64,000 bases of DNA from IMG/VR virus record IMGVR_UViG_3300044712_001255, positions 186,001 to 250,000 of that record; one strand, given 5' to 3'. Both the position numbers and the translations under genes were made by a program. This stretch comes from a virus. The notes below the pieces were generated by a model. It was not told the DNA's origin. It saw only the letters and a program-made list of their open reading frames with translations, and ran no database searches. Of the stretch, positions 10,626-46,859 are shown piece by piece. How positions within the stretch are numbered: the stretch's first letter is position 1; each line of letters opens with the position of its first letter.

Positions 10626-10832
10626 TTAGTCGAACTCAATTACCTCAAAAACAAAATCATTTTTGATGTCATAGCGTTCAATACCCATCGATCGTCGAAG
10701 GACAACGACCTTGCGATAGTGCTCAGCATCGCTGTCGGTGTTTGCAATGACGATGCCTACCTCAAATTCATTCTTTGCAGGAATGAACACCAGCGTTCCT
10801 GGCTCGAGTTTTGAGGCAAGTTCATAGAACAT
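10626..10832 (-). CDS. PGD-family protein (P-G-T variant)
   Basis: 68 residues; L-E-P-G-T at 9-13 and V-G-I-V-I-A. The last gene of the array. Its ATG directly abuts the stop of the upstream gene (TAG-ATG). Confidence 0.75.
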   Translation of the reverse strand: MFYELASKLEPGTLVFIPAKNEFEVGIVIANTDSDAEHYRKVVVLRRSMGIERYDIKNDFVFEVIEFD

Positions 10833-11105
10833 CTACTCATAAGTAGACTCTCTGATGACTCCAAATCGTACAGCGTTGGAATCAGAATAAGAAAGATTCC
10901 AATAATCAAAGATCACATTGTTACGCAATATTGAGAGTTCAACTCGTGAGTCAAAAACTTTAACAGCAATTACAAGTGATTTGGGATATTTCGCCACAGT
11001 GCCGAGTGGCGTAGAAAATGCTACTATAACATCACCCGGGAGTGTCTTGCGATAGTCTACCCAGGTGACATTGCGATCAAAGTACAGCGATGTAATAGTC
11101 GACAT
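10833..11105 (-). CDS. PGD-family protein
   Basis: 90 residues from the internal ATG at 11105; L-P-G-D-V at 22-26 and S-L-V-I-A-V. The start overlaps the end of the HD gene by 29 bases. Confidence 0.7.
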   Translation of the reverse strand: MSTITSLYFDRNVTWVDYRKTLPGDVIVAFSTPLGTVAKYPKSLVIAVKVFDSRVELSILRNNVIFDYWNLSYSDSNAVRFGVIRESTYE

Positions 11106-11835
11106 CGCGATTACGCTCCAGCTCTCCTGACAAGACACGCTCCTTCAACGAAGAGATAGCCTTACCCAAAGCAGGACCAGGGGCAATGCCAAACTTCTCA
11201 GAAATGACAAGTCCAAGTCCCTTGGGAAGAACGTTGCGATCGGCGTCGGCCTTCTTGATCTTTTCAATATAGGATTCAAGGTCATCAATGCGACGTTGGT
11301 GCTGCAAGAACTTCTCACGACGACCGGTGGTGACGTCTGCGCGTACAAAGCGCAAGAGAGCAGGCAGCCGAGGCCCACACTCAGTGATCAAGCGACGAAC
11401 GCCCGAATCCGACCACTCATCAACGCATTCCACGCGACCAGAATTGCGAATGAGCCATTCGATTTCCTCTGCCTGATCCTGTTCGTCATCCCACAGGTGA
11501 GTGCGCTTGGCAATAACGCGGAACATGTCAGCGCCACACGCTTCGTGGCCGTGAAAGGTCACCTCACGATTGATGATGCGAAAACATATAGGCTTACCGA
11601 TGTCGTGTAGTAGAGCAGTCCAACGCTGCGAAAGCGTCAGAGTGGTCTGAGCGACCACCTGGCGGGTGTGAGCCCACAGATCCTTGTGATGAACGCCATC
11701 GCCGAACCCAATGATGTTCATGAGCTCGGGAAAGAACAGCTTCACATCTGCCTGTTGCACGAGGTGCGTGAGTCGATCATTCGAGATAGTATGAGCGAGC
11801 AATTGAGAATCGATATATTGCTTCGTCAATGACAT
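11077..11835 (-). CDS. HD-domain protein, CCA-adding-enzyme-like
   Basis: 252 residues. H-T-R-Q-V-V near 56-61, A-L-L-H-D-I-G-K-P near 74-82 and F-H-G-H-E near 94-98 form the metal-binding pattern of HD phosphohydrolases. The spacing and the later F-G-I-A-P-G-P-A-L-G-K match the C-terminal HD half of bacterial tRNA nucleotidyltransferases. The N-terminal polymerase-beta half is absent, so it cannot add CCA alone; a 2'-phosphatase or cyclic phosphodiesterase role is possible. ATG 11847 is an alternative start. It interrupts the PGD array. Confidence 0.75.
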   Translation of the reverse strand: MSLTKQYIDSQLLAHTISNDRLTHLVQQADVKLFFPELMNIIGFGDGVHHKDLWAHTRQVVAQTTLTLSQRWTALLHDIGKPICFRIINREVTFHGHEACGADMFRVIAKRTHLWDDEQDQAEEIEWLIRNSGRVECVDEWSDSGVRRLITECGPRLPALLRFVRADVTTGRREKFLQHQRRIDDLESYIEKIKKADADRNVLPKGLGLVISEKFGIAPGPALGKAISSLKERVLSGELERNRDVDYYIAVL

Positions 11836-11839
11836 TGTG

Positions 11840-12028
11840 CTAATCATCCCAACTAGGGTTATGTGTCACGGGCTCAATGTGAAGTTCAACTGTCAACTTT
11901 GTTTTTGCGCCTTGAAGGATTTCATTTACAATTGTCCAATTCTCGGCGAGATAACTGTCATCAGTAACGATGCTCTCAAGTGTGACAGCAAGCTTCGTAG
12001 CTAACGCGACAAGTTCTTCCTTACTCAT
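11840..12028 (-). CDS. hypothetical protein
   Basis: A 62-residue helical protein. It has the best Shine-Dalgarno of the region, AGGAGGT eight bases before the ATG, so it probably opens a transcript that continues into the HD gene. Confidence 0.65.
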   Translation of the reverse strand: MSKEELVALATKLAVTLESIVTDDSYLAENWTIVNEILQGAKTKLTVELHIEPVTHNPSWDD

Positions 12029-12085
12029 ATGACAATACCTCCTGTCGGCGCGATCTGCACCGACACAATGATAGATATCGAAAAA

Positions 12086-12430
12086 TCAACCAACGATTTG
12101 ATTGATCAGCGTATCTAACGCATGTCTCACGCGACAGAGGTCAACAACGTCAACTCGCCGCAAGTATGATTTTGAAATGGGCCATTGAATTCCTTCAACG
12201 TTGTCGTATGCTGGCATGAGGTCAGTTGCCTCAACGCACCATACCATTTCACCTTCAATTTTGTCAACTCTATAAAGAGTCTTAGAGATCATCCCAGACA
12301 TTTCAGCATAGGCTACAATATCACCAACGTTTATCCTTGGGATGAGTCCTGTGGTGACTAGCATACGTCCACCCGTAGATTGTAGAGGTCCTGTGGCCCC
12401 CATGGGTCCAAATGTAATTGTGTTTGACAT
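12086..12430 (-). CDS. second paralogue family, member 3
   Basis: 114 residues. The centre has L-Y-R-V-D-K and the C terminus reads Y-L-R-R-V-D-V-V-D-L-C-R-V-R, then L-D-T-L-I-N-Q-I-V. Two upstream genes share this ending. TGATG overlap with the upstream gene. Confidence 0.75.
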   Translation of the reverse strand: MSNTITFGPMGATGPLQSTGGRMLVTTGLIPRINVGDIVAYAEMSGMISKTLYRVDKIEGEMVWCVEATDLMPAYDNVEGIQWPISKSYLRRVDVVDLCRVRHALDTLINQIVG

Positions 12431-12714
12431 CACGTGCCTTGCACACCGTCTTCGTCATCTTTGGCGATCGAATCGACTTCGGCGTTAATGAATAGATCAA
12501 TCTTTAGGCGTGCCGCCGCGAGGTCAGTCAAGACAACTGGCCGCATGTAACACGCTTGGAAACGTTTCTTGCGCCCTCTTGGCCCATCAAGATTTCCCCA
12601 CAACGATATCACAGGTTCTACGAGAAAATAGCTTGGATCTTTGTACGTTTCCACCACACGATACACAAAATCATGATGATCTACGTGCGTACACAACGAT
12701 CCAATCTTATACAT
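12430..12714 (-). CDS. second paralogue family, member 2
   Basis: 94 residues. F-V-Y-R-V-V-E in the first third and Y-M-R-P-V-V-L-T-D-L near 56-65, then I-D-L-F-I. The most diverged of the three relatives. TGATG overlap with the zinc protein upstream. Confidence 0.7.
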   Translation of the reverse strand: MYKIGSLCTHVDHHDFVYRVVETYKDPSYFLVEPVISLWGNLDGPRGRKKRFQACYMRPVVLTDLAAARLKIDLFINAEVDSIAKDDEDGVQGT

Positions 12715-12959
12715 CAATTGCTCTTTTCGTTTTTGTTTGCTGAGAACACTCTCACATTTTCAATGTTCAATAGAATACGGCACCCAATGCACTCTTTCTG
12801 AGTTATGAACACTTCTTGCAGATCGTGATGATCTATGATGGGTAGTCCACATGCTGGACACCGCACCTCAATTGTGCCTGCCGCATGGCACTTTATGATG
12901 TCATTCACGGTGTCACGGACGGTGTCACTCAGTTCCTGTTGCTTCTTCTTGTGCTTCAT
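12714..12959 (-). CDS. zinc-knuckle small protein
   Basis: 81 residues. A lysine-rich N terminus is followed by C-P-A-C and, about 25 residues later, C-I-G-C, a treble-clef or ribbon-like zinc site. It overlaps the upstream gene by 35 bases. May bind nucleic acid; no closer family is seen. Confidence 0.65.
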   Translation of the reverse strand: MKHKKKQQELSDTVRDTVNDIIKCHAAGTIEVRCPACGLPIIDHHDLQEVFITQKECIGCRILLNIENVRVFSANKNEKSN

Positions 12960-13416
12960 TGCCATCTGCAGCTCCTGTGCACGATTCTACAACGTCTGAA
13001 ACGAGCTGATCAATGAGCGTGCGGAGTTTGCAAAGGTCTACGATGTCAATCCGCATCAACCTACAAGAGTCGTAAGTTGTGCGACCACGATCACGTGCTG
13101 CCCTGTTGGGAACAGGAGATAATAACACAAGTGGCTTCACTTGCGTACGCCATATTGGTGATCCAGCGACTGGCGTCTTCGTTGTTTTGTACCGCGTGCG
13201 TCCTGTTTTTGGGTCTTTGTATGATCTCGACCAATTCGTCTTGGTTCGAAAACGTATCTTGCCTGGCTCTTCGTGCTTTTCAACCCTGTAGATCGTATTA
13301 GCCGCTGATCCGGTGGCGCCAACAACATAGACATATGATCCCACCGGAAATGCATTTTCTGGCGTGTCTTCAATCGTCTTGAATCTTGTCCTTAATTCCT
13401 TGAGAGTGCGTGCCAT
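12925..13416 (-). CDS. second paralogue family, member 1
   Basis: 163 residues, the longest of three relatives: T-I-Y-R-V-E-K near 41-47, a basic insert (KTGRTRYKTTK), then L-M-R-I-D-I-V-D-L-C-K-L-R and L-I-D-Q-L-V. An acidic tail follows. It opens an operon from a clean leaderless promoter. Confidence 0.75.
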   Translation of the reverse strand: MARTLKELRTRFKTIEDTPENAFPVGSYVYVVGATGSAANTIYRVEKHEEPGKIRFRTKTNWSRSYKDPKTGRTRYKTTKTPVAGSPIWRTQVKPLVLLSPVPNRAARDRGRTTYDSCRLMRIDIVDLCKLRTLIDQLVSDVVESCTGAADGNEAQEEATGTE

Positions 13417-13422
13417 ACTAAC

Positions 13423-13451
13423 ATTTTACGCACCGGGAACGCAATTTTCAA
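13423..13451 (-). promoter_or_regulatory. leaderless promoter, near-consensus
   Basis: Minus strand: -35 TTGAAA (13451-13446), 17 nt, -10 TAAAAT (13428-13423), then six bases to the ATG at 13416. The closest match to a sigma-70 consensus in the window. Confidence 0.7.
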
Positions 13452-13690
13452 CTCGCAAGACGCTCTATGATTGCAAACCATTCATAGGCAAGGATTATCT
13501 CATCAGATGCTTCGCCCGTGGGCAGGAGCAATTTTATGCGTACAGCAGTATCGTATCTCCTGCTATTTTTCTTCACCTCGATAACGATACCAGTGCGTTG
13601 CGACAAGAACGTCAATGGAACGTTGGTCTCGGACCGCCACGCAAGCACGTAGTCACCGGGTACGATTTCGCATGTCTGTACTTGTTCCAT
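13448..13690 (-). CDS. PGD-family protein
   Basis: 80 residues; I-V-P-G-D at 9-13 and G-I-V-I-E-V. It has its own promoter: GTGTAG, 17 nt, TAGGAT, seven bases to the ATG. Confidence 0.8.
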   Translation of the reverse strand: MEQVQTCEIVPGDYVLAWRSETNVPLTFLSQRTGIVIEVKKNSRRYDTAVRIKLLLPTGEASDEIILAYEWFAIIERLAS

Positions 13691-13732
13691 TTAGAACATC
13701 CTAACTCGTGTGTCACGATGCTACACAAATAA

Positions 13733-13981
13733 TTACGTCTTCACAGATACAGAAGCCCCCACAGGCACCTCAAGATTTAACACGTAGTCGTCTTGCAGCA
13801 CCTGAAGCTTTATGACATGAGGATTGTCGCTTGAGCAGACGGGACCACTTACGATGACGCCCCAGTTCCAACGGAAGTAGGTGACGCGGAGGCCGTTTGT
13901 CGTCTTCCACTCCCAATCTCCAAGAACTTCGTCTCCTTCAAGCAGATCTTTGACGTTTCTACGAACGCTGTTGGCTGACAC
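13733..13981 (-). CDS. PGD-family protein (E-G-D variant)
   Basis: 82 residues from a GTG start with GGGAGGAGG upstream. L-L-E-G-D at 13-17 has lost the proline; W-G-V-I-V-S replaces the usual core. A degenerate member. Confidence 0.65.
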   Translation of the reverse strand: MSANSVRRNVKDLLEGDEVLGDWEWKTTNGLRVTYFRWNWGVIVSGPVCSSDNPHVIKLQVLQDDYVLNLEVPVGASVSVKT

Positions 13982-14028
13982 TTCACGGCCCTCCTCCCGT
14001 TGATAGGTAGGCTGTGAATCAATGTCGT

Positions 14029-14304
14029 TTATCTCTCGTAGATTCTAAATGGACATTTGTATGAGTAGAAACGTGTGTGTACGCTATTTGACGTATCAAG
14101 TGTGGTTATGTCGATCCATTTCATACCATCAACATTTTCTTCTGTCAAGATGCTGATGACCATTTGTGGTCCACTTTGCACGAGTAACGCGTCACCAGGA
14201 TGTTCAGAGTCGATGAAATATCCGACAACGACATCACCCGGTATCAAATCACATGCCGAGATGTCGATTGTATTTTCACTCGTTTGAGTACACTTCATAT
14301 TCAA
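14029..14304 (-). CDS. PGD-family protein
   Basis: 91 residues; L-I-P-G-D at 20-24 and M-V-I-S-I. The start overlaps the upstream gene by 29 bases (23 from the second Met). Confidence 0.78.
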   Translation of the reverse strand: MNMKCTQTSENTIDISACDLIPGDVVVGYFIDSEHPGDALLVQSGPQMVISILTEENVDGMKWIDITTLDTSNSVHTRFYSYKCPFRIYER

Positions 14305-14506
14305 GAATTACTGAGCAGGTGATGACAATCACATTTGACTTCAAAAGTAATTTGACACGATTAAATTTCCAGTTTTCTTCACGGCCTATCACGAGCGCGT
14401 TCTTGAACGCCTCTTGCTTGCCATCTTCGCCAGTTACAGCATAGCGTACATTACCCGTCAACAAATCGCCAGGACTAAAATCATAAGCATATTTCCACTC
14501 AATCAT
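14276..14506 (-). CDS. PGD-family protein
   Basis: 76 residues; F-S-P-G-D at 10-14 and A-L-V-I-G. ATGATTGA overlap of eight bases with the upstream stop. Confidence 0.8.
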   Translation of the reverse strand: MIEWKYAYDFSPGDLLTGNVRYAVTGEDGKQEAFKNALVIGREENWKFNRVKLLLKSNVIVITCSVILEYEVYSNE

Positions 14507-14765
14507 GAGCGTAGATTTCTATTTGTTCTTCTTTGTTGCGATGAATTGTGACTATGTGATGATTCTGTAAAAAGAGAGTGATGACGTATACGTCATAAGA
14601 GAAATTTCCTCTTAGCGTTGTGATAAATGAACATTTGCTAATCACCATTGCATTCACCCATGCCTTACTTTTAATAGACGGAGTTGGATTAAGAAGACCA
14701 TCTTTCCAAGTGCCTGTAAGCAAATCACCAGGCACAAGTTCGTCAACTGTGACATACTTCAACAT
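14499..14765 (-). CDS. PGD-family protein
   Basis: 88 residues from the internal ATG; L-V-P-G-D at 10-14 and A-M-V-I-S. The next gene upstream has the same L-x-P-G-D-x-L-T-G run, so the two look like a local duplication. Confidence 0.78.
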   Translation of the reverse strand: MLKYVTVDELVPGDLLTGTWKDGLLNPTPSIKSKAWVNAMVISKCSFITTLRGNFSYDVYVITLFLQNHHIVTIHRNKEEQIEIYAHD

Positions 14766-15018
14766 CGCGAAAGACCTCGTAGCGCTCATGTTGAGAGCCT
14801 GACGCGTTATACCATCTGTGACACACTTCACCATTTGGTAGCATCACTGTCAACCCGAATAAGTCACTGTGCTGTGAGCTGATGATCATGACGTTTGCAT
14901 AATCGCGCACGTAAGAAATATCAGCTTTACGCGGTGGTGGATTTAAGAACTTGATTTTACCAGTCAACACGTCACCAGGTATCAGTTCACTGCCATGTAC
15001 GTAGATACACTCATTCAT
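14743..15018 (-). CDS. PGD-family protein
   Basis: 91 residues; L-I-P-G-D-V-L-T-G at 12-20 and V-M-I-I-S. It shares L-T-G after the motif with the two genes downstream. Confidence 0.8.
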   Translation of the reverse strand: MNECIYVHGSELIPGDVLTGKIKFLNPPPRKADISYVRDYANVMIISSQHSDLFGLTVMLPNGEVCHRWYNASGSQHERYEVFRDVEVCHS

Positions 15019-15349
15019 CGTACTTTTCCCTTACACAACGCAAAGAACAACCACGTACGAACCCGGAAATAACCCCTGAGTCTGATGCTGATAATGGCAC
15101 GACCTCATTGTTTGTTGTGAGCACCGTAATCTTCCAAGGAAAAGTTATATGTTCACCTTCAACCAACGTAGTGCTACACAACGTAGGCGTCTTTGAAAGC
15201 AAGATGCAGCGTTTAGTCAGCGTGTATTTCAGTCCATCGTTCGCCCAAATTTGCGACGGCTCATATTCTGAATGATAGTTGTGCCATATCCACGTGACTG
15301 CATCACCCGGTTCAATGAGAGCTATGCCAACAGCGTCTATGGGCTTCAC
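15011..15349 (-). CDS. PGD-family protein, long
   Basis: 112 residues, the longest standard member; I-E-P-G-D at 12-16. A roughly 30-residue insert sits between the motif and the strand W-K-I-T-V-L. Confidence 0.75.
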   Translation of the reverse strand: MKPIDAVGIALIEPGDAVTWIWHNYHSEYEPSQIWANDGLKYTLTKRCILLSKTPTLCSTTLVEGEHITFPWKITVLTTNNEVVPLSASDSGVISGFVRGCSLRCVREKYDE

Positions 15350-15361
15350 ATTTCAATGATA

Positions 15362-15622
15362 TCACATTTTACACACGTCTGCATCGCGCTTGAGTCGAAG
15401 GGTGTACCAATCACCCAAGCAATACGTTTGCAGTACAGCATCATGGTAGATATAGCTTATGGAATATAGATCGTTTTTAGCGCCTTTTAGCTCAATGCTA
15501 ATCACAAGCTTTGGAAATGATTGCTCTTCTACATAACATGACATCGATGTAGGGTAAAATGCACAGAATATTGTGTCTCCCGGTTCAAGCTGATTGACTT
15601 CTATATGTTCTAAGTTGTTCAT
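15362..15622 (-). CDS. PGD-family protein
   Basis: 86 residues; L-E-P-G-D at 12-16 and K-L-V-I-S-I. It overlaps the upstream stop by four bases (ATGA). Confidence 0.8.
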   Translation of the reverse strand: MNNLEHIEVNQLEPGDTIFCAFYPTSMSCYVEEQSFPKLVISIELKGAKNDLYSISYIYHDAVLQTYCLGDWYTLRLKRDADVCKM

Positions 15623-15831
15623 TCATTATCTCGTGGTCTGTATATGTCAATTTCTTCTTCACCGCTCAACGGATAACACGATTCGCCGTGAAATGCAGGC
15701 ATAAACGTGATGTTCCAAAATCTGGACATGAGCTTGTGCGGTGGGATGACAGACACGATGAGGTAATGCTTGCCTTGAAAGAGATTGACGTCTCCTGGCA
15801 TAACGTCTTTGACTTTCATTTTTTCAAACAT
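15619..15831 (-). CDS. PGD-family protein
   Basis: 70 residues from the ATG in the ATGTTTGA overlap; V-M-P-G-D at 10-14 and L-I-V-S-V. Confidence 0.8.
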   Translation of the reverse strand: MFEKMKVKDVMPGDVNLFQGKHYLIVSVIPPHKLMSRFWNITFMPAFHGESCYPLSGEEEIDIYRPRDNE

Positions 15832-16078
15832 CGTCGTCCCTAAGCAACGTGACAAAGCCATCTGCGTCATCTTTTACGACAAGCGTCTCAGCTAGCAATT
15901 CATTGTGGTGTATTTCTCCGTCTTCTAACCAATAAACACATACCATCGATTTGGTGAATACGCTATCAGGGACGAGGCGCGTGACTGCGACTATTATTTG
16001 TGACGTTGGTGAATCATCTCGCTTGCGACCGACCAACCAATCGCCAGGAACGAGCTCGTCCATTCTGCAATTCATCAT
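15824..16078 (-). CDS. PGD-family protein
   Basis: 84 residues; L-V-P-G-D at 9-13 and I-I-V-A-V. The C terminus is acidic. ATGA overlap with the upstream gene. Confidence 0.8.
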   Translation of the reverse strand: MMNCRMDELVPGDWLVGRKRDDSPTSQIIVAVTRLVPDSVFTKSMVCVYWLEDGEIHHNELLAETLVVKDDADGFVTLLRDDDV

Positions 16079-16305
16079 TCACCTTCGCGTGAAAATCGGT
16101 ACACTTCTCGTGTCTTCCAATGCGTTACTCTAAATAGATGTCCCTGAGTATTGAGAAATGTCAAACTACATGACCCGCTATCGAAAAAAATTGCAATCAA
16201 TAACTTGTGAAAGTGAGCATTTCCTTTATGACCTTCCCACGCAAACACATCACCGGGCAGCAGTCGCGCTATGTAAGTCTTTGTGAAAAGTTTATCTGAT
16301 GACAT
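16075..16305 (-). CDS. PGD-family protein
   Basis: 76 residues from the second Met (ATG 16317 is possible); L-L-P-G-D at 15-19 and L-L-I-A-I. Confidence 0.78.
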   Translation of the reverse strand: MSSDKLFTKTYIARLLPGDVFAWEGHKGNAHFHKLLIAIFFDSGSCSLTFLNTQGHLFRVTHWKTREVYRFSREGE

Positions 16306-16519
16306 AGATGATATCACTTGGAGAAGTTACGTACTCGCTTACGTCTGTTCTACCACGTTCTAACATCGTAAACTTAATGCTACCATGACGCAATTCATTA
16401 ACAGCAACAATTAAACATGCGTGAAGCCACTCATACACAAGGTGTTCGATACCCAGCCCAACGATTGTATCGCCAGGATATGCATCTTTTGCGCGCAGCT
16501 TTATCGCATCACTCTGCAT
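16292..16519 (-). CDS. PGD-family protein
   Basis: 75 residues; A-Y-P-G-D at 13-17 and C-L-I-V-A-V. It overlaps both neighbours. Confidence 0.8.
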   Translation of the reverse strand: MQSDAIKLRAKDAYPGDTIVGLGIEHLVYEWLHACLIVAVNELRHGSIKFTMLERGRTDVSEYVTSPSDIIYVIR

Positions 16520-16718
16520 ATCGCCAACACGCTACGTGCAAGTTGCCGTAATTCGTTATCGAATGATACCCATATTTCCCAATATAAGTGATATTAACTT
16601 TATCACCATGATTTTCATGAATTACAGAGATTACCAATTTACGATCCCCTAGATACCAAAGCCTAGCGTATAGATCTCCTGGCAGAAGATCATTGTACGT
16701 GCACTCTGAAAATTGCAT
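16509..16718 (-). CDS. PGD-family protein, first of its sub-block
   Basis: 69 residues; L-L-P-G-D at 11-15 and K-L-V-I-S-V. TATTGT ends seven bases before the ATG and AGAGGA lies between, so this gene may start the 16.7 to 13.7 kb transcript. Confidence 0.78.
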   Translation of the reverse strand: MQFSECTYNDLLPGDLYARLWYLGDRKLVISVIHENHGDKVNITYIGKYGYHSITNYGNLHVACWRYAE

Positions 16719-16764
16719 ATCCTCTACAATAGAACAACACAATCATGTGATGTACCATCATTGC

Positions 16765-17472
16765 ATGCTAAAGTATCTCGTGTGCACAATGTATTGCGGT
16801 GAGCCTGACCTTCCGCATCATCTGAAGGCGATATCGCAACAAGGCGTTGAGATTGATCACAGGATCATCAGCTTCAAGAACGAGATGGAGGCACACAATG
16901 CCGTGTACTCTGCCTTCAACACAGCAGGTCCTGAGTGGATTCGTGCCAAGATTGATGCAGATGTGGTGCTGACGCCCAGTGTACTGGCTCGCATAGACGC
17001 GCCGTCAAACGCGTGGATTGACCCACAGACACACGACTTCTTCACGGATAAACTGCTACATGCCGGTGTGGCAATATATGGTAGCAGCGTCAGATTTCGA
17101 GTGCAGACTGACCCTCTGAAGTGTGATCGCAATGTGATAATCCCACCAGTAAATCAATGCGGTATTGGAGTGATTGGAACACACGCTGCACACGCAGATG
17201 AAATCACCGGATTTCACTTTGGATTTCACAGGGGCCTGAAGAGCCAGCTTCCCGTCTATGAGGACTTGCTGGCTGCATATAAGAAACACGGAGATCGAGT
17301 GCGGCTCATGGCAATTCGCGGGTTTGAACTCGGACAGTCAGATCGCTACAAGGAATGGCACCTTGGAGGAAAGCCTGTGACTGCAGACCACAACTACGGC
17401 GACGGCTTGCGACAGTTATTCGATGAGTTCAAGGGCGATGACGCACCCGTGCTTACTCGTACGTGGCGATAG
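16765..17472 (+). CDS. glycosyltransferase-like protein (GT-A type)
   Basis: 235 residues. The opening K-Y-L-V-C-T-M-Y-C resembles the nucleotide-sugar strand of GT-A folds. I-R-A-K-I-D-A-D-V-V-L near 59-69 holds a D-A-D, consistent with the metal-binding DxD. Family-2-like overall; donor and acceptor unknown. It sits alone on the plus strand inside the minus-strand array. TACCAT ends six bases before the ATG, another leaderless arrangement. It could modify host surface glycans or phage DNA. Confidence 0.65.
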   Translation: MLKYLVCTMYCGEPDLPHHLKAISQQGVEIDHRIISFKNEMEAHNAVYSAFNTAGPEWIRAKIDADVVLTPSVLARIDAPSNAWIDPQTHDFFTDKLLHAGVAIYGSSVRFRVQTDPLKCDRNVIIPPVNQCGIGVIGTHAAHADEITGFHFGFHRGLKSQLPVYEDLLAAYKKHGDRVRLMAIRGFELGQSDRYKEWHLGGKPVTADHNYGDGLRQLFDEFKGDDAPVLTRTWR

Positions 17473-17473
17473 A

Positions 17474-19115: not shown

Positions 19116-19366
19116 CACAATCCTACTTCATCTTCGCAATCTACGCGTATGATTTTATCAGTATACCGCAATGTACCACGTATTACTTGCATTGTAGGAG
19201 AAACAACCGCGACGTAATACATGTCGTCCCCATATCCAGAGTGTTGTATCGAAACAATCATGCCGAGTTTCGTAGCACCGACACCGCCCAGACCGCCGCC
19301 TCCCCCGCAGTACACTATGTTACCCGGGACCAGGCTACCAAATTCGACAGTTTTGTAACCGCTCAT
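19115..19366 (-). CDS. PGD-family protein with Gly-rich loop (P-G-N)
   Basis: 83 residues; L-V-P-G-N at 12-16. The loop after the motif is CGGGGGLGGVG, unlike any sibling. M-I-V-S-I follows. ATGA overlap. Confidence 0.76.
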   Translation of the reverse strand: MSGYKTVEFGSLVPGNIVYCGGGGGLGGVGATKLGMIVSIQHSGYGDDMYYVAVVSPTMQVIRGTLRYTDKIIRVDCEDEVGL

Positions 19367-19545
19367 TGTATTATGTCCAGTTCTTGATCTAGCGCCCAAG
19401 CGAAGCTGTGCAATTCACTTTTGCAAGTAAGGATTGTCACGTAAACGCCTGTGCCCGCATGCAGTACAGAAATGACAATAAATGTCATATGACTGTTAGA
19501 CATGTATCGTCCTAAACTTCCTGGTGTGATATCACGTACGTACAA
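19363..19545 (-). CDS. PGD-family protein (P-G-S variant)
   Basis: 60 residues; I-T-P-G-S at 6-10 and F-I-V-I-S-V. Minimal length. Confidence 0.75.
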   Translation of the reverse strand: MYVRDITPGSLGRYMSNSHMTFIVISVLHAGTGVYVTILTCKSELHSFAWALDQELDIIQ

Positions 19546-19548
19546 GCA

Positions 19549-19749
19549 TCACCCCTCTTCAAGGCGCATAATCACCGCCGTCCAAGCGCCAACCCACTCT
19601 CCCGGCAATGGAATACATCCCTTGGGCGATAGAAGCGTAAGCAAGTGAAGATCAGATTCCCTACGTTCTACGCTTATGACCAACCACAGGGCGTTTTTGT
19701 TATCGTCAGTGACGATGATATCACCTGGTATGATATCTCGAGTCATCAT
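19549..19749 (-). CDS. PGD-family protein
   Basis: 66 residues from ATG 19749 (19761 also possible); I-I-P-G-D at 6-10 and W-L-V-I-S-V. Confidence 0.78.
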   Translation of the reverse strand: MMTRDIIPGDIIVTDDNKNALWLVISVERRESDLHLLTLLSPKGCIPLPGEWVGAWTAVIMRLEEG

Positions 19750-19750
19750 C

Positions 19751-19984
19751 CTACGCAACATCGCGTATCACTCTCATCTTTTTCATGTGATGCATGATTT
19801 CTTTAATCAGTTTACCATCGTATGTCAGCAAACTACACTCGATGAGTCCAACGTGAATGTAATCGTCTCTACAACAACGAACGACAGCAATCACAAGCGC
19901 AAACCGTGAATTTACAATCATAACGTCGCCAGGAACTATTTCAATATCCAATGATCTTGCGTCATTCTTGTAGCCTCTCGACAT
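19751..19984 (-). CDS. PGD-family protein
   Basis: 77 residues; I-V-P-G-D at 16-20 and A-L-V-I-A-V. Confidence 0.8.
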   Translation of the reverse strand: MSRGYKNDARSLDIEIVPGDVMIVNSRFALVIAVVRCCRDDYIHVGLIECSLLTYDGKLIKEIMHHMKKMRVIRDVA

Positions 19985-20228
19985 ACAACGTCAACCTGCT
20001 AAAGCTAATGTTTGTCGGTAAATTGTACAGCTTACCATCACCATTTACGACGCATATGCAATTTATGCCTTCACCCGCCCGTATTTTTACGCTAATTACT
20101 AAAGCAGGCGGTCGTAAGATGCATAATTTTGGCGTTGCGTTGACCCACATAGTTCCTTGAGTCCACCAGATCAAATCACCTGGCAAAACATTGTCGAATA
20201 AATCCTGGCAACATGTTACAGTGATCAT
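19962..20228 (-). CDS. PGD-family protein
   Basis: 88 residues; V-L-P-G-D at 14-18, a 20-residue insert, then A-L-V-I-S-V. Confidence 0.8.
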   Translation of the reverse strand: MITVTCCQDLFDNVLPGDLIWWTQGTMWVNATPKLCILRPPALVISVKIRAGEGINCICVVNGDGKLYNLPTNISFSRLTLYVERLQE

Positions 20229-20464
20229 GTTTCCTCTTCGCGAGGAAACCGCTTGAATTTAAAATCTGTTCTGTACATCACGTGTGTCGGACCAACGCTG
20301 TCTACGGAATTGAGAATCATCATAGCGACATTATCAACTATGCGTCCATTATACGTGTATATGAGCTGCGTAGAAATTATCAACCACTGCGTTTTGAACC
20401 ACAACACCACATCACCTGGGAGCAGTTCATCTGCTCGGCAATCGATCATATCATTATGAGTCAT
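20225..20464 (-). CDS. PGD-family protein
   Basis: 79 residues (74 from the second Met, which follows the upstream stop); L-L-P-G-D at 14-18 and W-L-I-I-S. Confidence 0.78.
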   Translation of the reverse strand: MTHNDMIDCRADELLPGDVVLWFKTQWLIISTQLIYTYNGRIVDNVAMMILNSVDSVGPTHVMYRTDFKFKRFPREEET

Positions 20465-20687
20465 CTTGCTTTAATCGACGTATTGTTCCAAATTGATGCT
20501 CCCCGATTGTTTTCTTACTCACCCTACCATTGTCATAAATCATCGTAAGCATGCGATATTGATAATCATCTAGTGCTGTAGATTTGACATTCTGCGCCGC
20601 AATGACCAACCGCCACACATTTGCCCACATGATCATGTCACCGGGCACAATTTCAAAGGGGTTGACGTATTCGTATTCGTCAGTCAT
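20454..20687 (-). CDS. PGD-family protein
   Basis: 77 residues; I-V-P-G-D at 13-17 and R-L-V-I-A. ATGA overlap upstream. Confidence 0.8.
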   Translation of the reverse strand: MTDEYEYVNPFEIVPGDMIMWANVWRLVIAAQNVKSTALDDYQYRMLTMIYDNGRVSKKTIGEHQFGTIRRLKQDDS

Positions 20688-20896
20688 GATTCATCCACTG
20701 CGAAACGATGTATCATAGTGTCACCTATAGGAAATGTTCTTTCTATCAACTTTTGTGTTTGAAGCACTATGAGCGTATATCCAATGTGTTTATGGTATTT
20801 CATTGTGATGACAAGACATAGGCCATCACCAAATACAGACACATACGCATCACCCGGCTGAAGATCACGTACGCACGCGTTTTTAGCAAACTTCAT
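20684..20896 (-). CDS. PGD-family protein
   Basis: 70 residues; L-Q-P-G-D at 12-16 and C-L-V-I-T. Confidence 0.8.
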   Translation of the reverse strand: MKFAKNACVRDLQPGDAYVSVFGDGLCLVITMKYHKHIGYTLIVLQTQKLIERTFPIGDTMIHRFAVDES

Positions 20897-21125
20897 GATG
20901 CATCCTCTCCCTTGAACACACGGGTGACTGTTCCATCATAGACAAAATACCTACTTTGATAACGCCCTTGTGACATACAACCAACTCACAAAGGTTGTGG
21001 CATTGATATGAAGTAGGGAGATTTTTAACGCTGATGACAATAGAGGGACTGTTAAAGTAATAAATCACATCACCAGGGCATAGGTCGCCCACATACGTTT
21101 GTTCGTGATGTATCCACTTGCTCAT
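20883..21125 (-). CDS. PGD-family protein
   Basis: 80 residues; L-C-P-G-D at 15-19 and S-I-V-I-S-V. Several Cys and His residues in the second half could bind metal. Confidence 0.8.
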   Translation of the reverse strand: MSKWIHHEQTYVGDLCPGDVIYYFNSPSIVISVKNLPTSYQCHNLCELVVCHKGVIKVGILSMMEQSPVCSRERMHHEVC

Positions 21126-21319
21126 GTGTTGTATCTACGGATGTGGCATATTGAGTATACAAAGTAATGCCTATGTTTCACAACGTCATCCAATATAATG
21201 GCATGAATACGTTCTTTTTCAACACATACGCTGAGCACAAGACACCATCGTAAGCCAACTTCCATTACGTCTCCTGGAAAAAGTCCCATTGCCGCTATCA
21301 ACATTTCATCATCATTCAT
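21122..21319 (-). CDS. PGD-family protein
   Basis: 65 residues; L-F-P-G-D at 13-17 and C-L-V-L-S-V. ATGA overlap at its end with the next gene. Confidence 0.8.
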   Translation of the reverse strand: MNDDEMLIAAMGLFPGDVMEVGLRWCLVLSVCVEKERIHAIILDDVVKHRHYFVYSICHIRRYNT

Positions 21320-21539
21320 GAGCGTACTTCCATAGCGTCACAGTCCAATTTTCTGCGTAGTGAAATGAATCAACTTTACCATCGATCAACACTGATACGA
21401 TGATTCGCTCATATGATACACGCATGTTTATGGCTACGCCTACGACCATGCGCATGGCGCCAAGACAAAGTAACAGATCGCCCGGCTCGATTTCACAAGC
21501 GCGATGGCGATATTCGTCAGTAAGTTCGTCCTTAAACAT
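21312..21539 (-). CDS. PGD-family protein
   Basis: 75 residues from the ATG in an ATGTTTAA overlap; I-E-P-G-D at 17-21 and M-V-V-G-V. Confidence 0.8.
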   Translation of the reverse strand: MFKDELTDEYRHRACEIEPGDLLLCLGAMRMVVGVAINMRVSYERIIVSVLIDGKVDSFHYAENWTVTLWKYAHE

Positions 21540-21738
21540 GGATGTGACGCACGAACTTGACTGTTTCCAACTGCTCAAAGAGATAAGGGACATTCCGTCC
21601 GTTTATCAGAACGTCTGCTCGGATGTTATCGTACACTACTCTCCAAACTGCGATCACTAGCTTCTCACCCATACCAGACACGACAAGCATGTCTCCAGGT
21701 TGAAGCTCGTACGCAAAACCCATCTTTGCGTTTGTCAT
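21532..21738 (-). CDS. PGD-family protein
   Basis: 68 residues; L-Q-P-G-D at 12-16 and K-L-V-I-A-V. ATGA overlap. Confidence 0.8.
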   Translation of the reverse strand: MTNAKMGFAYELQPGDMLVVSGMGEKLVIAVWRVVYDNIRADVLINGRNVPYLFEQLETVKFVRHIHV

Positions 21739-21947
21739 GATCTCTGCTCTTCTCCCCACTGCCAGGTATACATGGTGAAATTGAAGTGGAATTCTCTTTT
21801 CACTATAGCGTTGTTGCTGGTGAGTAACACAGTCAAACACGTAGAATTCCAATCGTGATATACACTTACGATGAGGCAGTATCTCGAGCCTTCGAGTATC
21901 ATATTACCGGGCACGAGATGCCGCACTTCCATTCTTGAAAAAGTCAT
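21735..21947 (-). CDS. PGD-family protein (P-G-N variant)
   Basis: 70 residues; L-V-P-G-N at 11-15 and C-L-I-V-S-V. ATGA overlap. Confidence 0.8.
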   Translation of the reverse strand: MTFSRMEVRHLVPGNMILEGSRYCLIVSVYHDWNSTCLTVLLTSNNAIVKREFHFNFTMYTWQWGEEQRS

Positions 21948-22153
21948 GTTCGATACTTCACGCAATGCACAGTCCACCATCTCTGACATAGTTTGCGTTC
22001 TAATGTATTGTCACTGCGCAAGACAATAAAATTGATGTACGCCGAAGAACGACGTACGCTGACGACAAGTTTACCTTCAACTATGTCGCCTGGCTCAACG
22101 TCGTTCACAACCATTACGCCATCAAATACATCATCAACATAGTTTATTTTCAT
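21944..22153 (-). CDS. PGD-family protein, recent duplicate
   Basis: 69 residues; V-E-P-G-D-I-V-E-G at 19-27 and L-V-V-S-V-R-R-S. Clearly the closest relative of the next gene upstream: both share V-E-P-G-D-I-V-E-G, L-E-R and T-V-H-C-x-K-Y at the end. Confidence 0.82.
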   Translation of the reverse strand: MKINYVDDVFDGVMVVNDVEPGDIVEGKLVVSVRRSSAYINFIVLRSDNTLERKLCQRWWTVHCVKYRT

Positions 22154-22344
22154 ATTTGATATTTTGCACAATGCACCGTTGAACCTGTGATGCACACGAA
22201 TCGTTCCAATACGCTGTCGCGGTGCAGGACAGTAAAAACAACTCGAGTCACAGAACGATGAACACTGATGACGAGCATTCCCTCGACTATGTCGCCGGGT
22301 TCAACAACATCCACGGACATTATCCCAATGCTCTCGTCAGTCAT
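22150..22344 (-). CDS. PGD-family protein, recent duplicate
   Basis: 64 residues; V-E-P-G-D-I-V-E-G at 14-22 and L-V-I-S-V-H-R-S. Sister of the gene at 21944-22153. Confidence 0.82.
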   Translation of the reverse strand: MTDESIGIMSVDVVEPGDIVEGMLVISVHRSVTRVVFTVLHRDSVLERFVCITGSTVHCAKYQI

Positions 22345-22589
22345 ATAGCTTGTGCCAATTCAACACGCTCGAGCTGCACATGCTTGTGGAACTTATACTG
22401 TTGAACTTGTGTGCCAACGAGCACAGACAATGTTACACTTACGTTGGAATTGTCAATATCAACACTCACGATAATGCACCACCACTTCTTGGTATTGTGG
22501 TCAACCCATAATCCTACGATATCACCAGGGCAGATATCTGTTACAAATACCAATTTGCAATTTTCTCGAACAGGTCTCCAATTAGACAT
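22341..22589 (-). CDS. PGD-family protein
   Basis: 82 residues; I-C-P-G-D at 19-23 and C-I-I-V-S-V. Confidence 0.8.
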   Translation of the reverse strand: MSNWRPVRENCKLVFVTDICPGDIVGLWVDHNTKKWWCIIVSVDIDNSNVSVTLSVLVGTQVQQYKFHKHVQLERVELAQAI

Positions 22590-22791
22590 ACAGCTTCACT
22601 TGTGTGTCGCACAAATAGCGCAATTCACGCACCCCAGAACGCCAAAGAACGCGCAGGAGAATGAAATGTTTTTGTTCGTAGACAATGCTTAATATAAGCA
22701 CCCGTTCTGGAGGAAAACATAACATATCGCCCGGCTCAAGATCACAGGCCAATACAGATATGTACTGTGGCAATTCGATCGTGTCTTTCAT
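22582..22791 (-). CDS. PGD-family protein
   Basis: 69 residues from the ATG in a TGATG overlap; L-E-P-G-D at 18-22 and V-L-I-L-S-I. Confidence 0.8.
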   Translation of the reverse strand: MKDTIELPQYISVLACDLEPGDMLCFPPERVLILSIVYEQKHFILLRVLWRSGVRELRYLCDTQVKLYV

Positions 22792-23021
22792 CACAGCTTG
22801 AGCTTTTTCAAGACAGACATACTGGAATACCCAATCTCAAGAAGGCCAAATTCTGTGAGAAACTGTAACTTCATAAGACGCTGACTATTAGTTTCTCTAC
22901 ATGTACCGATCACAAGCGCCCATCCAATTTGATGTCCGTGAAACCGCCACTGCGCAATGTCTCCCGGAACAATGTTGCCAGCATATTCCCATTCCCAATC
23001 GATTGCTTTACGCTCGTTCAT
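22791..23021 (-). CDS. PGD-family protein, subtype B
   Basis: 76 residues; N-I-V-P-G-D at 16-21 and A-L-V-I-G. Its W-E-x-A-G-N lead-in matches the gene at 23244, so it belongs to the B half of the alternating A/B units. Confidence 0.8.
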   Translation of the reverse strand: MNERKAIDWEWEYAGNIVPGDIAQWRFHGHQIGWALVIGTCRETNSQRLMKLQFLTEFGLLEIGYSSMSVLKKLKL

Positions 23022-23254
23022 GACCACTTCGCCCTGCGAATGTGCACACATGACGTTAGCGCAAACACATGTTCGGTTATTGCGCCATAGCGCAAACACG
23101 AAACAAAGATACGTTTGTTGCCTTGATATTCTCCTGATCGTACGCTAATCACAAGGGAAAATTCCATGCCAAATTCACGCAGAAGATCACCAGGTTCAAT
23201 CGAACATGCTTGGACGTATTCAATACCGAAGCTTGTGTGGGAATCAATAATCAT
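23018..23254 (-). CDS. PGD-family protein, subtype A
   Basis: 78 residues; M-I-I-D-S-H-T start, I-E-P-G-D at 19-23, L-V-I-S-V-R-S-G-E-Y and the ending H-I-R-R. Same subtype as 23470 and 23896. Confidence 0.82.
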   Translation of the reverse strand: MIIDSHTSFGIEYVQACSIEPGDLLREFGMEFSLVISVRSGEYQGNKRIFVSCLRYGAITEHVFALTSCVHIRRAKWS

Positions 23255-23480
23255 CAGCTCTTATCATGACAAAATACAAATCGTTGTTATCTACCCAAGT
23301 AGACATTAGCGTTGAATCTCGTAAGGTTGTCACATAGCTACGTTGTACGTCAACATTCTTGTGATGCTTCACACTCACTACAAGCACAGCACGCTTATTA
23401 GAGTAATTGCTATAGAACACAACATCGCCGGGAACCAAGTTCCCTGCACGTTCCCAACCTTGCCCACATTTATTGCTCAT
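23244..23480 (-). CDS. PGD-family protein, subtype B
   Basis: 78 residues; A-G-N-L-V-P-G-D at 12-19 and V-L-V-V-S-V. It alternates with subtype A neighbours. Confidence 0.82.
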   Translation of the reverse strand: MSNKCGQGWERAGNLVPGDVVFYSNYSNKRAVLVVSVKHHKNVDVQRSYVTTLRDSTLMSTWVDNNDLYFVMIRADDY

Positions 23481-23709
23481 TGTTCATCCTACGAACGTGA
23501 ATATGCGTCGTTGGAATAAACAGAGTCTCTAGCACAACACCGTGCTCAATATATGAGACAAACACGCGTTTTGCACCTCGATATTCTCCTGATCGTATGC
23601 TGATAATGAGGTGAAATTTCCCGTCGTAGTCGTACATCATATCACCTGGTTCAACCTTGTGGATTGGAACGTAAGCGACATCTGGGTCTGTGTGGGAACC
23701 AAAAATCAT
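23470..23709 (-). CDS. PGD-family protein, subtype A
   Basis: 79 residues; M-I-F-G-S-H-T start, V-E-P-G-D at 19-23, L-I-I-S-I-R-S-G-E-Y, and ending H-V-R-R-M-N. Confidence 0.82.
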   Translation of the reverse strand: MIFGSHTDPDVAYVPIHKVEPGDMMYDYDGKFHLIISIRSGEYRGAKRVFVSYIEHGVVLETLFIPTTHIHVRRMNNEQ

Positions 23710-23906
23710 GTATCCCTCTCAAGAATCATAACGCCGTCACTTGGTAAGAATGTAACAGTTGCAAGTTGATTTCCTAACAATGTTGTAAGTTTGATGTAGT
23801 AATTTTCTGGCGTGGGAAGAAACACCGATATCACAAGTCCCCATCGAAACAACACATCACCCGGAATAACATTGCGAGCAGCTACGTGCATGATGTTATG
23901 GCTCAA
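23706..23906 (-). CDS. PGD-family protein, subtype B
   Basis: 66 residues; N-V-I-P-G-D at 12-17 and G-L-V-I-S-V with a very short loop between. Confidence 0.8.
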   Translation of the reverse strand: MSHNIMHVAARNVIPGDVLFRWGLVISVFLPTPENYYIKLTTLLGNQLATVTFLPSDGVMILERDT

Positions 23907-24141
23907 TGTTCATCCTGCGAATGTGCAGGTATACTACTGGTATAAGTTTAATTTCTACCACCACACCACATTTCAAATATGAAATAAAGATGCGTGTTGC
24001 GTTGTGATATTCTTCTTGCCTTGCAGCGACCACGAGGTGAAATTTTCCAAGGTGATCATACAACATATCGCCCGGTTTAACCTCGTCCGCGCGAATGCAA
24101 TCAATTGTCATATCTGTGACGTCTGCATGAGTATCAAACAT
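23896..24141 (-). CDS. PGD-family protein, subtype A
   Basis: 81 residues from the ATG in an ATGTTTGA overlap; V-K-P-G-D-M-L-Y-D at 21-29 and ending H-I-R-R-M-N, matching the subtype A gene at 23470. Confidence 0.82.
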   Translation of the reverse strand: MFDTHADVTDMTIDCIRADEVKPGDMLYDHLGKFHLVVAARQEEYHNATRIFISYLKCGVVVEIKLIPVVYLHIRRMNIEP

Positions 24142-24322
24142 TACAACACTCGCAAAGCACCAAGAATAATTCGTCGAGGCGTTCGCAACGCATGACAAGA
24201 AAATTCTCACGTAACATCATCACAGTGACATTGTGTGTATTTGGTCGAACACTCACCACAAGACAGACGTATCCACCATGAAAGACAAGATCGCCGGGTG
24301 TTAGGTTCTCAGCTTGTTTCAT
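24134..24322 (-). CDS. PGD-family protein, subtype B
   Basis: 62 residues from the ATG in an ATGA overlap; N-L-T-P-G-D at 6-11 and C-L-V-V-S-V. Confidence 0.8.
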   Translation of the reverse strand: MKQAENLTPGDLVFHGGYVCLVVSVRPNTHNVTVMMLRENFLVMRCERLDELFLVLCECCNV

Positions 24323-24522
24323 TGTTCTCTCGTCAAAATCACGTACGAGTTTTCGATCGGTTGCCAAGGCCATGTTATAACACACCCCCTATACAATGTG
24401 ATTATCTTTGCAGAATGCTCAAGAGCGTTAAATTGCACTTTGATCACAAGAGCGGGACCGCCGCCAAAAATGATGACGTCGCCCGGGACAAGGTCAGCTA
24501 CTGGACACGCCTCGTTGTTCAC
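24319..24522 (-). CDS. PGD-family protein
   Basis: 67 residues from a GTG that overlaps the upstream TGA; L-V-P-G-D at 11-15 and A-L-V-I-K-V. Confidence 0.8.
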   Translation of the reverse strand: MNNEACPVADLVPGDVIIFGGGPALVIKVQFNALEHSAKIITLYRGCVITWPWQPIENSYVILTREQ

Positions 24523-24773
24523 AGGTCCCTCACCAAGATTATGTGACCTGTACAATATTCTTTGTAGTAATTCCCTAAGACACCGTTAATCAATGTTGTC
24601 ACTTTGACGTGGTTACCATCATGCATCACACTTATCACAAGACCAGTATAACGCCCACGTCGATAGAAAACGATATCACCCGGAACCAGGTCTTCCGCTG
24701 CACACCATTGTTGGTCGCTCACTGAACTTGAGCTATCATCGATCGTCGAGCTCGTGGGGGAACCAAAAATCAC
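24519..24773 (-). CDS. PGD-family protein, subtype A-like
   Basis: 84 residues from a GTG overlapping the upstream stop. M-I-F-G-S-x-T supports this start, as in 23470. A Ser-rich linker precedes L-V-P-G-D at 29-33; G-L-V-I-S-V follows. Confidence 0.8.
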   Translation of the reverse strand: MIFGSPTSSTIDDSSSSVSDQQWCAAEDLVPGDIVFYRRGRYTGLVISVMHDGNHVKVTTLINGVLGNYYKEYCTGHIILVRDL

Positions 24774-25003
24774 GATTCCCTCACCATGCACGCATACCGA
24801 GACTCATTGACTGCGTGTAGAGTGATCACTTCACTGCCGAACAGATAGACAAGAACAGTACAATCCAAATGCGCTCGACACGACCTAACGCTTATGACAA
24901 GTGCCATGTCCTTTATGACATCGCCTGGCTCAAGAGATATCGCTCTACGCCATTCGTAGTTCTTGATCAACATGTCTTTGACGATAAAATCTGAATAGTT
25001 CAT
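24770..25003 (-). CDS. PGD-family protein
   Basis: 77 residues; L-E-P-G-D at 24-28 and A-L-V-I-S-V with a very short loop. Confidence 0.8.
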   Translation of the reverse strand: MNYSDFIVKDMLIKNYEWRRAISLEPGDVIKDMALVISVRSCRAHLDCTVLVYLFGSEVITLHAVNESRYACMVRES

Positions 25004-25317
25004 AGCTCAACCACGGGAATCAACGTGAATTCATTGCTGAATTCAAATGAACTAATCGTCCCTCGCGCGGCAGACAAAATCCAAATCTTCCTCGCGTCTT
25101 CATTGTGAATACTGGCAATCACCATGCCCTTGTGCATCCGAAGCTCAACAAATCTGTCACCCACTGTCCAAGTACCACCTATGCTGTTGTGCAACAAGTC
25201 TCCAGACTCGAGCTCATACGGATATTTCAAGACTACACCCTCAATAGGCTCCAAGTACGGAGGCAGACCTCGCTTGTAGGGGACATACACAGCCTCAGGA
25301 TACTCTATGCTAATCAT
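25000..25317 (-). CDS. PGD-family protein (S-G-D variant)
   Basis: 105 residues. A Pro/Tyr-rich N-terminal extension precedes L-E-S-G-D at 36-40; G-M-V-I-A-S follows after a long loop. Confidence 0.72.
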   Translation of the reverse strand: MISIEYPEAVYVPYKRGLPPYLEPIEGVVLKYPYELESGDLLHNSIGGTWTVGDRFVELRMHKGMVIASIHNEDARKIWILSAARGTISSFEFSNEFTLIPVVEL

Positions 25318-25568
25318 GGACTACACTCGAACATGTCCGTGCCGTCACGAAACCAACAATCACAATCCATCGTTGATTTTTCATGATAGTACATGGAATA
25401 CAATTCATAGTTGAGCGTGGCGGGATGATGTCCAAGCCAGTGCACAGAAATCCCGTTATGTTCAATGCGTTCCGTGGAGACAACAATGCGTGCACCACGA
25501 CGACCACGTACAATCATGTCTCCGGGCAGGAGTTCACCCACAATAACGTAATGATCCACTGACATCAT
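25314..25568 (-). CDS. PGD-family protein
   Basis: 84 residues; L-L-P-G-D at 13-17 and R-I-V-V-S. The C terminus is acidic and Cys-rich (D-C-D-C, F-E-C). Confidence 0.78.
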   Translation of the reverse strand: MMSVDHYVIVGELLPGDMIVRGRRGARIVVSTERIEHNGISVHWLGHHPATLNYELYSMYYHEKSTMDCDCWFRDGTDMFECSP

Positions 25569-25571
25569 AGT

Positions 25572-25612
25572 TCTCGTCGATCGTCGAATTCACATGCGTC
25601 ATCGATCGTCGA
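25572..25612 (+). repeat. CGATCGTCG dispersed repeat, two copies
   Basis: The gap 25569-25685 has no gene but two TCGATCGTCGAA copies. Related CGATCGTC runs occur near 24733, 33625, 34057, 36884, 42763 and 45032, always in or near gene boundaries. Confidence 0.5.
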
Positions 25613-25685
25613 ACCACGTCGACAACGCAATCAACCATGATGTCTCTCGATCTCCAACACATCTTCACGGCACCGCAACCAAAAA

Positions 25686-25916
25686 TCAAATCCATAAAAT
25701 ACGGACAGTGTCCCAGTATCTCAGCTTCTTATGGTAAACAGACTTACGCTTTAAGAAAGTCACATCATACCAGGCAGAATCACCACCATCACCCTTCTTC
25801 ACGCTGATCACTAGGCTCCACTGATCATTAGGCATGAAAGGTCTGTCTCCTAGAACATAGACAAGGTCTCCCGGCAGCAACTCACAAGCCGGCTTGTACT
25901 TCAAGTCGTCACTCAT
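25686..25916 (-). CDS. PGD-family protein
   Basis: 76 residues from the ATG in an ATGA overlap; L-L-P-G-D at 13-17 and S-L-V-I-S-V. Confidence 0.8.
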   Translation of the reverse strand: MSDDLKYKPACELLPGDLVYVLGDRPFMPNDQWSLVISVKKGDGGDSAWYDVTFLKRKSVYHKKLRYWDTVRILWI

Positions 25917-26200
25917 TGCTCTCTCAATACAAGCAACAGCTCGTTCATCCAGATCCAAGGACCAAATGTTCGCAAATAGAAAGTCCCGTCCGATGTCAGG
26001 AGCTGCATTGATTTGCAATAGGCTGATATGACAAGCGTAGGCCTTCGAACATATTGCATCTCTGCATGCACATCCCAGGGTTTAGAGTGCCCTTTGACTC
26101 GAGCATCTACTATCAAATCTCCAGGTAGGGCATCTCCCCATGCTATCTCGATAAGTCTCTGCACTGTACAACAGTACCACACGAACTCCCACAGCTGCAT
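25913..26200 (-). CDS. PGD-family protein, first gene of the array
   Basis: 95 residues from the internal ATG (the frame stays open to 26365, so the start is uncertain); A-L-P-G-D at 24-28 and T-L-V-I-S. No clear promoter hexamers were found upstream. Confidence 0.7.
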   Translation of the reverse strand: MQLWEFVWYCCTVQRLIEIAWGDALPGDLIVDARVKGHSKPWDVHAEMQYVRRPTLVISAYCKSMQLLTSDGTFYLRTFGPWIWMNELLLVLREQ

Positions 26201-27005: not shown

Positions 27006-27092
27006 TGCACATATGCGCCTAACCCAGGGTGCAACGGTCTTAAATGCCGGCACGCGACAACGTCAATTGCACCGTGTAGATCATAGTTGAAA

Positions 27093-46830: not shown

Positions 46831-46859
46831 TTAAAGCAACTACGTTGTATACTACGACC

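Follow-up and report, generated by a model that had tools for sequence, protein, structure and literature searches.

Bacillus phage G carries a zinc-ribbon family expanded to about 35 copies (PMC7824862), six of which we found clustered at 25.3–33.1 kb (first 50 kb). Large lineage-specific expansions are thus already known, and small SH3-like phage proteins are common. Here we analysed an array of 53 small minus-strand genes, named PGD genes after a conserved turn in their products, at positions 10626–26200 of a 64,000-nucleotide window (positions 186001–250000 of IMG/VR virus record IMGVR_UViG_3300044712_001255). The phage G zinc ribbons are its nearest precedent, since there, too, one small protein has expanded in a lineage-specific way within a jumbo phage. 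However, they have another fold, with Cys pairs, and fewer copies, and a stop-start-overlapping run is not shown there; the array proteins have no conserved Cys column that could supply paired CxxC zinc ligands. The novelty of the present locus lies in its scale, in its layout as an operon of overlapping genes, in a family that has no name and in a possible tie to CRISPR-like gene modules. The array would rank with the largest tandem expansions of one protein family so far described in a phage, and an earlier note on this DNA, which knew of no phage gene family expanded so far, has to be qualified by the phage G case.

Fifty-three overlapping genes encode one divergent family

The virus record comprises 324,468 bases (genome at least 324 kb) and encodes a T4-like large terminase (TerL) at genome 34.3 kb, which together identify it as a jumbo tailed phage. 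All coordinates are window positions unless marked as genome. Recounting the open reading frames (ORFs) within 10626–26200 returned the same 53 minus-strand genes of 60–112 amino acids (aa) that the earlier note had listed, and the linkage by stop-start overlaps that it described was borne out: 42 of 51 gene junctions overlap, most commonly by exactly 4 nt (21 junctions) and in eight cases by 8 nt, and 47 of 51 junction distances lie between −23 and +12 nt. The span given for the array was also right, but the array is discontinuous. Genes 1–2 (10626–11105) are cut off by an HD-domain gene and other small genes at 11077–13416, and an opposite-strand gene (about 16717–17472, +, about 251 aa, no Pfam or PHROG match) splits the remainder into uninterrupted runs of 13 genes (13448–16718) and 38 genes (17474–26200). 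The longer run holds 40 minus-strand ORFs of at least 58 aa, compared with 11.5 in shuffles, and 36 of these bear the motif (0.2 in shuffles).

With profiles that excluded the query, 48 of the 53 proteins were recovered at E<0.01 (Z=1000), while the best of 2765 shuffled ORFs reached 0.1. The five weak members (starting at 10626, 13733, 15011, 17901 and 25000) were retained on position, length and a PG[DTS]/EGD-type turn. The genes thus form one very divergent family rather than a collection of unrelated ones. Pairwise identity of the array proteins averages 21%, with a maximum of 53%, and column entropy approaches that of random sequence outside four places, namely the PGD turn, the LVIS strand, a Leu that follows it and a near-C-terminal Arg, in line with the nearly free per-site variation expected beforehand. 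The only conserved polar sites are the D of PGD and this Arg, and the proteins are acidic to neutral (mean charge −1.9), which argues against a single shared ligand or a common nucleic-acid-binding role.

The 44 members of an alignment (A1) matched no PHROG at E≤0.01, and scanning them against Pfam gave no significant match, only sub-cut-off matches of single members. Weak PGD-turn matches in the PDB pointed to an NlpC/P60 peptidase, which was rejected because the family has no conserved Cys or His column; matches of the profile to NlpC/P60, inteins and the RseP PDZ domain reflect how commonplace a PGD turn is. Judged by Pfam only, there was no match to the Tad2 (DUF2829) anti-Thoeris sponge.

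Small proteins encoded in the first gap of the array include 12086–12433, 12430–12717 and 12925–13416 (all −), of which at least those starting at 12086 and 12925 have a common YRV and DLCxxR pattern and possibly belong to a second barrel family.

Predicted SH3-like barrel fold

Two AlphaFold2 runs were made with different queries, 23244–23480 on A1 and 20454–20687 on an alignment of 23 members (A3). The latter was drawn from 13448–20896 only and excludes the first query and all members above 20896. Most A3 rows are also in A1, so that the second run represents a different query and a subset rather than a fully independent alignment. The models reached a pLDDT of 86.7 and 90.8, respectively, and in both, six strands follow one another in the same order, strand 2 coming after the PGD turn and strand 3 containing LVIS. 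The array proteins are thus predicted to share one common fold, an SH3-like barrel, as the earlier note had suggested.

Comparison with the PDB using Foldseek ranked domain I of EF-P and eIF5A, which is SH3-like and KOW-like, first for both models (probability 1.00, TM up to 0.73, E 0.007); all E-values exceeded 0.001, as expected because the barrel is tiny and common. In contrast to EF-P/eIF5A, the array proteins lack domains II–III: neither the KPGKG modification loop nor an extra OB domain was found in A1 or in any member. Profile comparison with EF-P using hhalign was in register but weak (20.8%). A fold match without a significant match to the sequence family indicates an SH3-like fold and not membership of the EF-P family. 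In a viral structure library, many uncharacterised phage proteins of 65–85 aa match the fold. Those in BFVD, such as A0A6H0X4E4 of Klebsiella phage KpS8, have the same size and fold (TM 0.73/0.80) but only 10–20% identity to the array proteins, and arrays of them are not known.

Duplication and selection within the array

The array shows signs of having grown by the copying of units of one or two genes. A two-gene unit present in three copies at 23018–24322 is marked by DNA repeats at spacings of 455 and 426 nt, and a direct repeat with 206-nt spacing marks a one-gene duplication, whose neighbouring products 22150 and 21944 are 53% identical. In the closest pairs, dN/dS was below 1 (0.15–0.65 where dS was finite), which indicates purifying selection, so that the genes stay functional after duplication.

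Relatives and a second array

Scans of IMG/VR with single members and small alignments found nothing, and A1 offered no segment of sufficient conservation for such a scan. In 28 IMG/VR records with a related TerL (mostly 50–58% identical, one of 298 kb) no array was present, and two marginal matches fall inside large unrelated frames. The 298-kb relative has kept the flanking genes 28922 and 32396, with no array adjoining them. This absence is as for accessory genes with fast turnover. No comparable match was found in four other phages, and phage G gave two marginal single-copy matches. In one relative, the TerL frame (L083:310–1767, −) appears to be interrupted by an intein-like element that has a PGD turn.

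Searching from a subfamily led to a related phage (IMG/VR 3300031344_000004 and 3300028654_000384), in which nine family genes, overlapping or closely spaced, form an array. When a profile of these nine genes, free of window sequence, was run against the 553 window ORFs, the top 24 were all array members. At least two phages therefore carry arrays of the family, which differ in size and orientation.

A probable distant subfamily ending in CRISPR-like units

RNA anti-CRISPRs and phage CRISPR mini-arrays (PMC10651486, PMC11656645) consist of a repeat or a repeat-spacer-repeat beside a small gene, and racr units beside acr genes are known (PMC10651486). Genes of a PGD-x-IEW type show a comparable arrangement. 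This type has seven matches in other parts of this genome, 15 in a 216-kb relative and 24, some partial, in a third phage (contigs 3300037099_000186 and _000250). Aligned by hhalign with the array family, the PGD-x-IEW profile reached a probability of 65% over 36 columns, with PGD, LLIS and L..G in the same order, and twelve column-shuffled controls reached at most 0.5%. From this profile similarity, the PGD-x-IEW proteins are probably homologous to the array family, as a distant subfamily.

The 3′ ends of PGD-x-IEW genes contain a partly palindromic repeat of 29 nt (GGTTGTTCCACGCGCGYGTGGATGAYRCG), after which come a unique segment of usually 32 nt and a second repeat. The repeat period is 61–62 nt in most of these units, and each gene has one to three units; in this genome, five repeats at three PGD-x-IEW genes have 64-nt spacing. 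Near-identical, partly palindromic repeats with a constant spacer length are a mark of CRISPR mini-arrays, and the units at PGD-x-IEW loci show them and have type I-E CRISPR geometry. In this phage they lie at genome 124569–124659 and 141031–141121 (L132:1667–1760 and L134:1667–1760), and in two relatives at L124:8170–8382, L125:4274–4424 and 5171–5321, L104:2300–2450 and L110:8179–8331. Unlike the described RNA anti-CRISPRs and mini-arrays, the repeat here is part of the gene's own 3′ end, and the gene has been duplicated in tandem together with its unit. A period of 61 nt does not divide by three and so shifts the frame from one repeat to the next; what is conserved is therefore the DNA or RNA. 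An 11-codon hypervariable loop in PGD-x-IEW (nucleotide identity 30% vs 77% in its flanks) was at first sight a case of diversifying selection on the protein. This was rejected, and the loop is better read as a CRISPR-like spacer, because its flanks are one DNA repeat in shifted frames.

The repeat resembles the E. coli I-E repeat, none of 1000 shuffles being as similar. In the Rfam search it matched no CRISPR repeat family, and its predicted hairpin was not stronger than those of shuffles. Together with the lack of a host array or a spacer target in our searches (see below), this leaves geometry and repeat similarity as the grounds for the CRISPR reading.

Proposed function of the array

We tentatively interpret the array as a co-translated accessory operon that encodes a repertoire of small binders for host takeover and counter-defence. 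The 53 genes would be co-transcribed and co-translated through coupling at their overlaps, so that the phage would deliver a large and varied set of small binders together. The barrel would be held by the PGD turn, the LVIS strand and the near-C-terminal Arg, while each free surface could fit a different partner, most likely targets of host takeover and proteins of host defence, making this a counter-defence set. In addition to the shared fold, the overlaps, the signs of duplication, the purifying selection, the scarcity of conserved polar sites, the nine-gene array of the related phage and the absence of the expansion from TerL relatives, two features of the layout were counted in favour of this interpretation: + strand GC skew is negative across the array, consistent with minus-strand genes, and promoter- or terminator-like sites show no excess within it. 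CRISPR-Cas is one plausible opponent, because PGD-x-IEW genes of this genome, a probable distant subfamily, have their ends within CRISPR-like units.

Several results weigh against this interpretation. Positive selection on the surfaces was not demonstrated in the array, where dN/dS of the closest pairs is below 1; of what the earlier note proposed, the single family, the common fold and the near-free variation are supported, and its binding or counter-defence role stays a suggestion. The tie to CRISPR-Cas depends on a weak profile match between PGD-x-IEW and the array (the hhalign value above), no CRISPR-like repeats occur in the 53-gene array, searching genomes with the repeat returned six matches, none an array, so that no host array was found, and 13 spacers compared with 50,697 phage records matched none.

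Other functions were weighed against the same evidence. The best match of both models being EF-P/eIF5A domain I, with the profiles in register, the barrels might target ribosomes or RNA polymerase in the manner of EF-P domain I or KOW domains, supporting a phage IF-1 that is indeed encoded at 8660–8884 (+; PF01176, 72.9 bits); we regard such a takeover of translation or transcription as quite unlikely, as the proteins are single domains without the KPGKG loop or a Pfam match, and show no conserved surface of the kind expected in 53 ribosome binders. A jumbo genome can afford tandem duplication at little cost, and the expansion could be largely selfish or neutral, with most copies lacking a distinct role. 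The evident recent duplication, the absence of the family in the TerL relatives and the finding that neighbours do not resemble each other significantly more than random pairs do (p=0.11) would fit. Yet 53 frames remain open, with no decay at 21% identity, core residues are invariant and close pairs are under purifying selection, which makes this explanation unlikely.

Paralogy occurs among the ejected head proteins of giant phages. The report on SPN3US (PMC5694885) describes that giant phages can carry many such proteins, and the array might accordingly encode virion, internal-head or decoration proteins with variable surfaces. Very small single barrels with no N-terminal cleavage motif seen, encoded about 160 kb from TerL, make this very unlikely. 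It is also improbable that every array and PGD-x-IEW protein is an inhibitor of type I-E-like CRISPR-Cas, with RNA decoys as partners of the PGD-x-IEW proteins: the repeat-spacer-repeat units with their 61-nt period and the known acr-racr pairs (PMC10651486) speak for such an anti-CRISPR set, but the array is repeat-free and its homology to PGD-x-IEW is weak. A broader and similarly doubtful proposal is that the PGD barrels form a new superfamily of CRISPR antagonists. PGD-x-IEW genes would then be mobile modules whose 3′ end is the first repeat of a type I-E-like mini-array, the newest spacer writing the C-terminus, and the 53-gene array would be a repeat-free library against Cas variants or other defences.

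The more than 50 diverged barrels on one scaffold, which have no Pfam or PHROG entry and whose fold is predicted, could be screened directly for new anti-defence or host-takeover activities. Such a natural barrel set also offers a test of how phages store and refresh repertoires. If borne out, the CRISPR-like gene modules in the relatives would represent a new gene architecture in phage-CRISPR conflict.

Gene-by-gene arrangement and neighbouring genes

E-values per gene are from a profile that excludes that gene (leave-one-out, Z=1000), and all array genes are on the minus strand. Genes 1–2 (10626–10832 and 10833–11105; E 0.043 and 1.8e-7) abut. Beyond the first gap follow genes 3–4 (13448–13690 and 13733–13981; 5.7e-6 and 0.13), genes 5–8 with stop-start overlaps (14029–14298, 14276–14506, 14499–14765, 14743–15018; 8.9e-12, 5.7e-4, 8e-7, 1e-4), genes 9–12 (15011–15349, 15362–15622, 15619–15831, 15824–16078; 0.051, 9.4e-11, 2e-6, 4.1e-5) and genes 13–15 (16075–16305, 16292–16519, 16509–16718; 1.2e-6, 3.2e-6, 5.4e-10), with overlaps in genes 9–15.

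The second run starts with the overlapping genes 16–19 (17474–17704, 17701–17901, 17901–18233, 18211–18534; 4.9e-4, 1.6e-6, >5 and 2.7e-4, the third placed by position and motif only). Overlaps continue in genes 20–27 (18531–18716, 18713–18922, 18915–19115, 19115–19366, 19363–19545, 19549–19749, 19751–19984, 19962–20228; 1e-3 to 7e-9) and genes 28–36 (20225–20464, 20454–20687, 20684–20896, 20883–21125, 21122–21319, 21312–21539, 21532–21738, 21735–21947, 21944–22153; 6e-7 to 1e-11). Genes 37–40 (22150–22344, 22341–22589, 22582–22791, 22791–23021; 2e-8 to 5e-9) precede the three copies of the two-gene unit, genes 41–46 (23018–23254 with 23244–23480, 23470–23709 with 23706–23891, 23896–24141 with 24134–24322; 2.9e-14 to 1.4e-8). 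Genes 47–50 (24319–24522, 24519–24773, 24770–25003, 25000–25317; 1.9e-11, 5.8e-14, 1.5e-8, 0.62) and 51–53 (25314–25568, 25686–25916, 25913–26200; 6.4e-9, 4.2e-13, 0.0023) complete the array, with overlaps in genes 47–53.

About seven further copies had been expected in the window, of which four are clear and two weaker. The clear ones are an adjoining pair outside the array (27488–27721 and 27718–28026, −; leave-one-out E 2.4e-6 and 2.3e-9), an isolated gene at 8138–8389 (−; profile E 9.7e-6) and an isolated PGD-like gene of GLVISV/ILW type at 9–242 (+; profile E 2.3e-4), which is the third in a row after genome 185502–185774 and 185765–186001. The profile placed the weaker ones at 27087–27326 and 7832–8110 (both +). 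A further apparent match at 8660–8884, which had entered an iterative profile, was discarded as the IF-1 gene described above. Further upstream, the genome contains additional dispersed copies.

Just right of the array, a GIY-YIG homing endonuclease with NUMOD3 is encoded at 29585–30277 (−). Elsewhere in the window we noted a phage GroEL-type chaperonin (1579–3159, +), a UvdE-type UV endonuclease (265–1215, +) and a trypsin-like protease with a lipoprotein-like signal (46845–47555, +); the 298-kb relative has a similar-looking secreted protease ORF (L092:11127–11822, −). Unrelated proteins starting at 46384 and 61488 (+) and ending at 59688 (−) have a similar N-terminal segment, 'LR..I(R)..', perhaps a sorting or cleavage signal.

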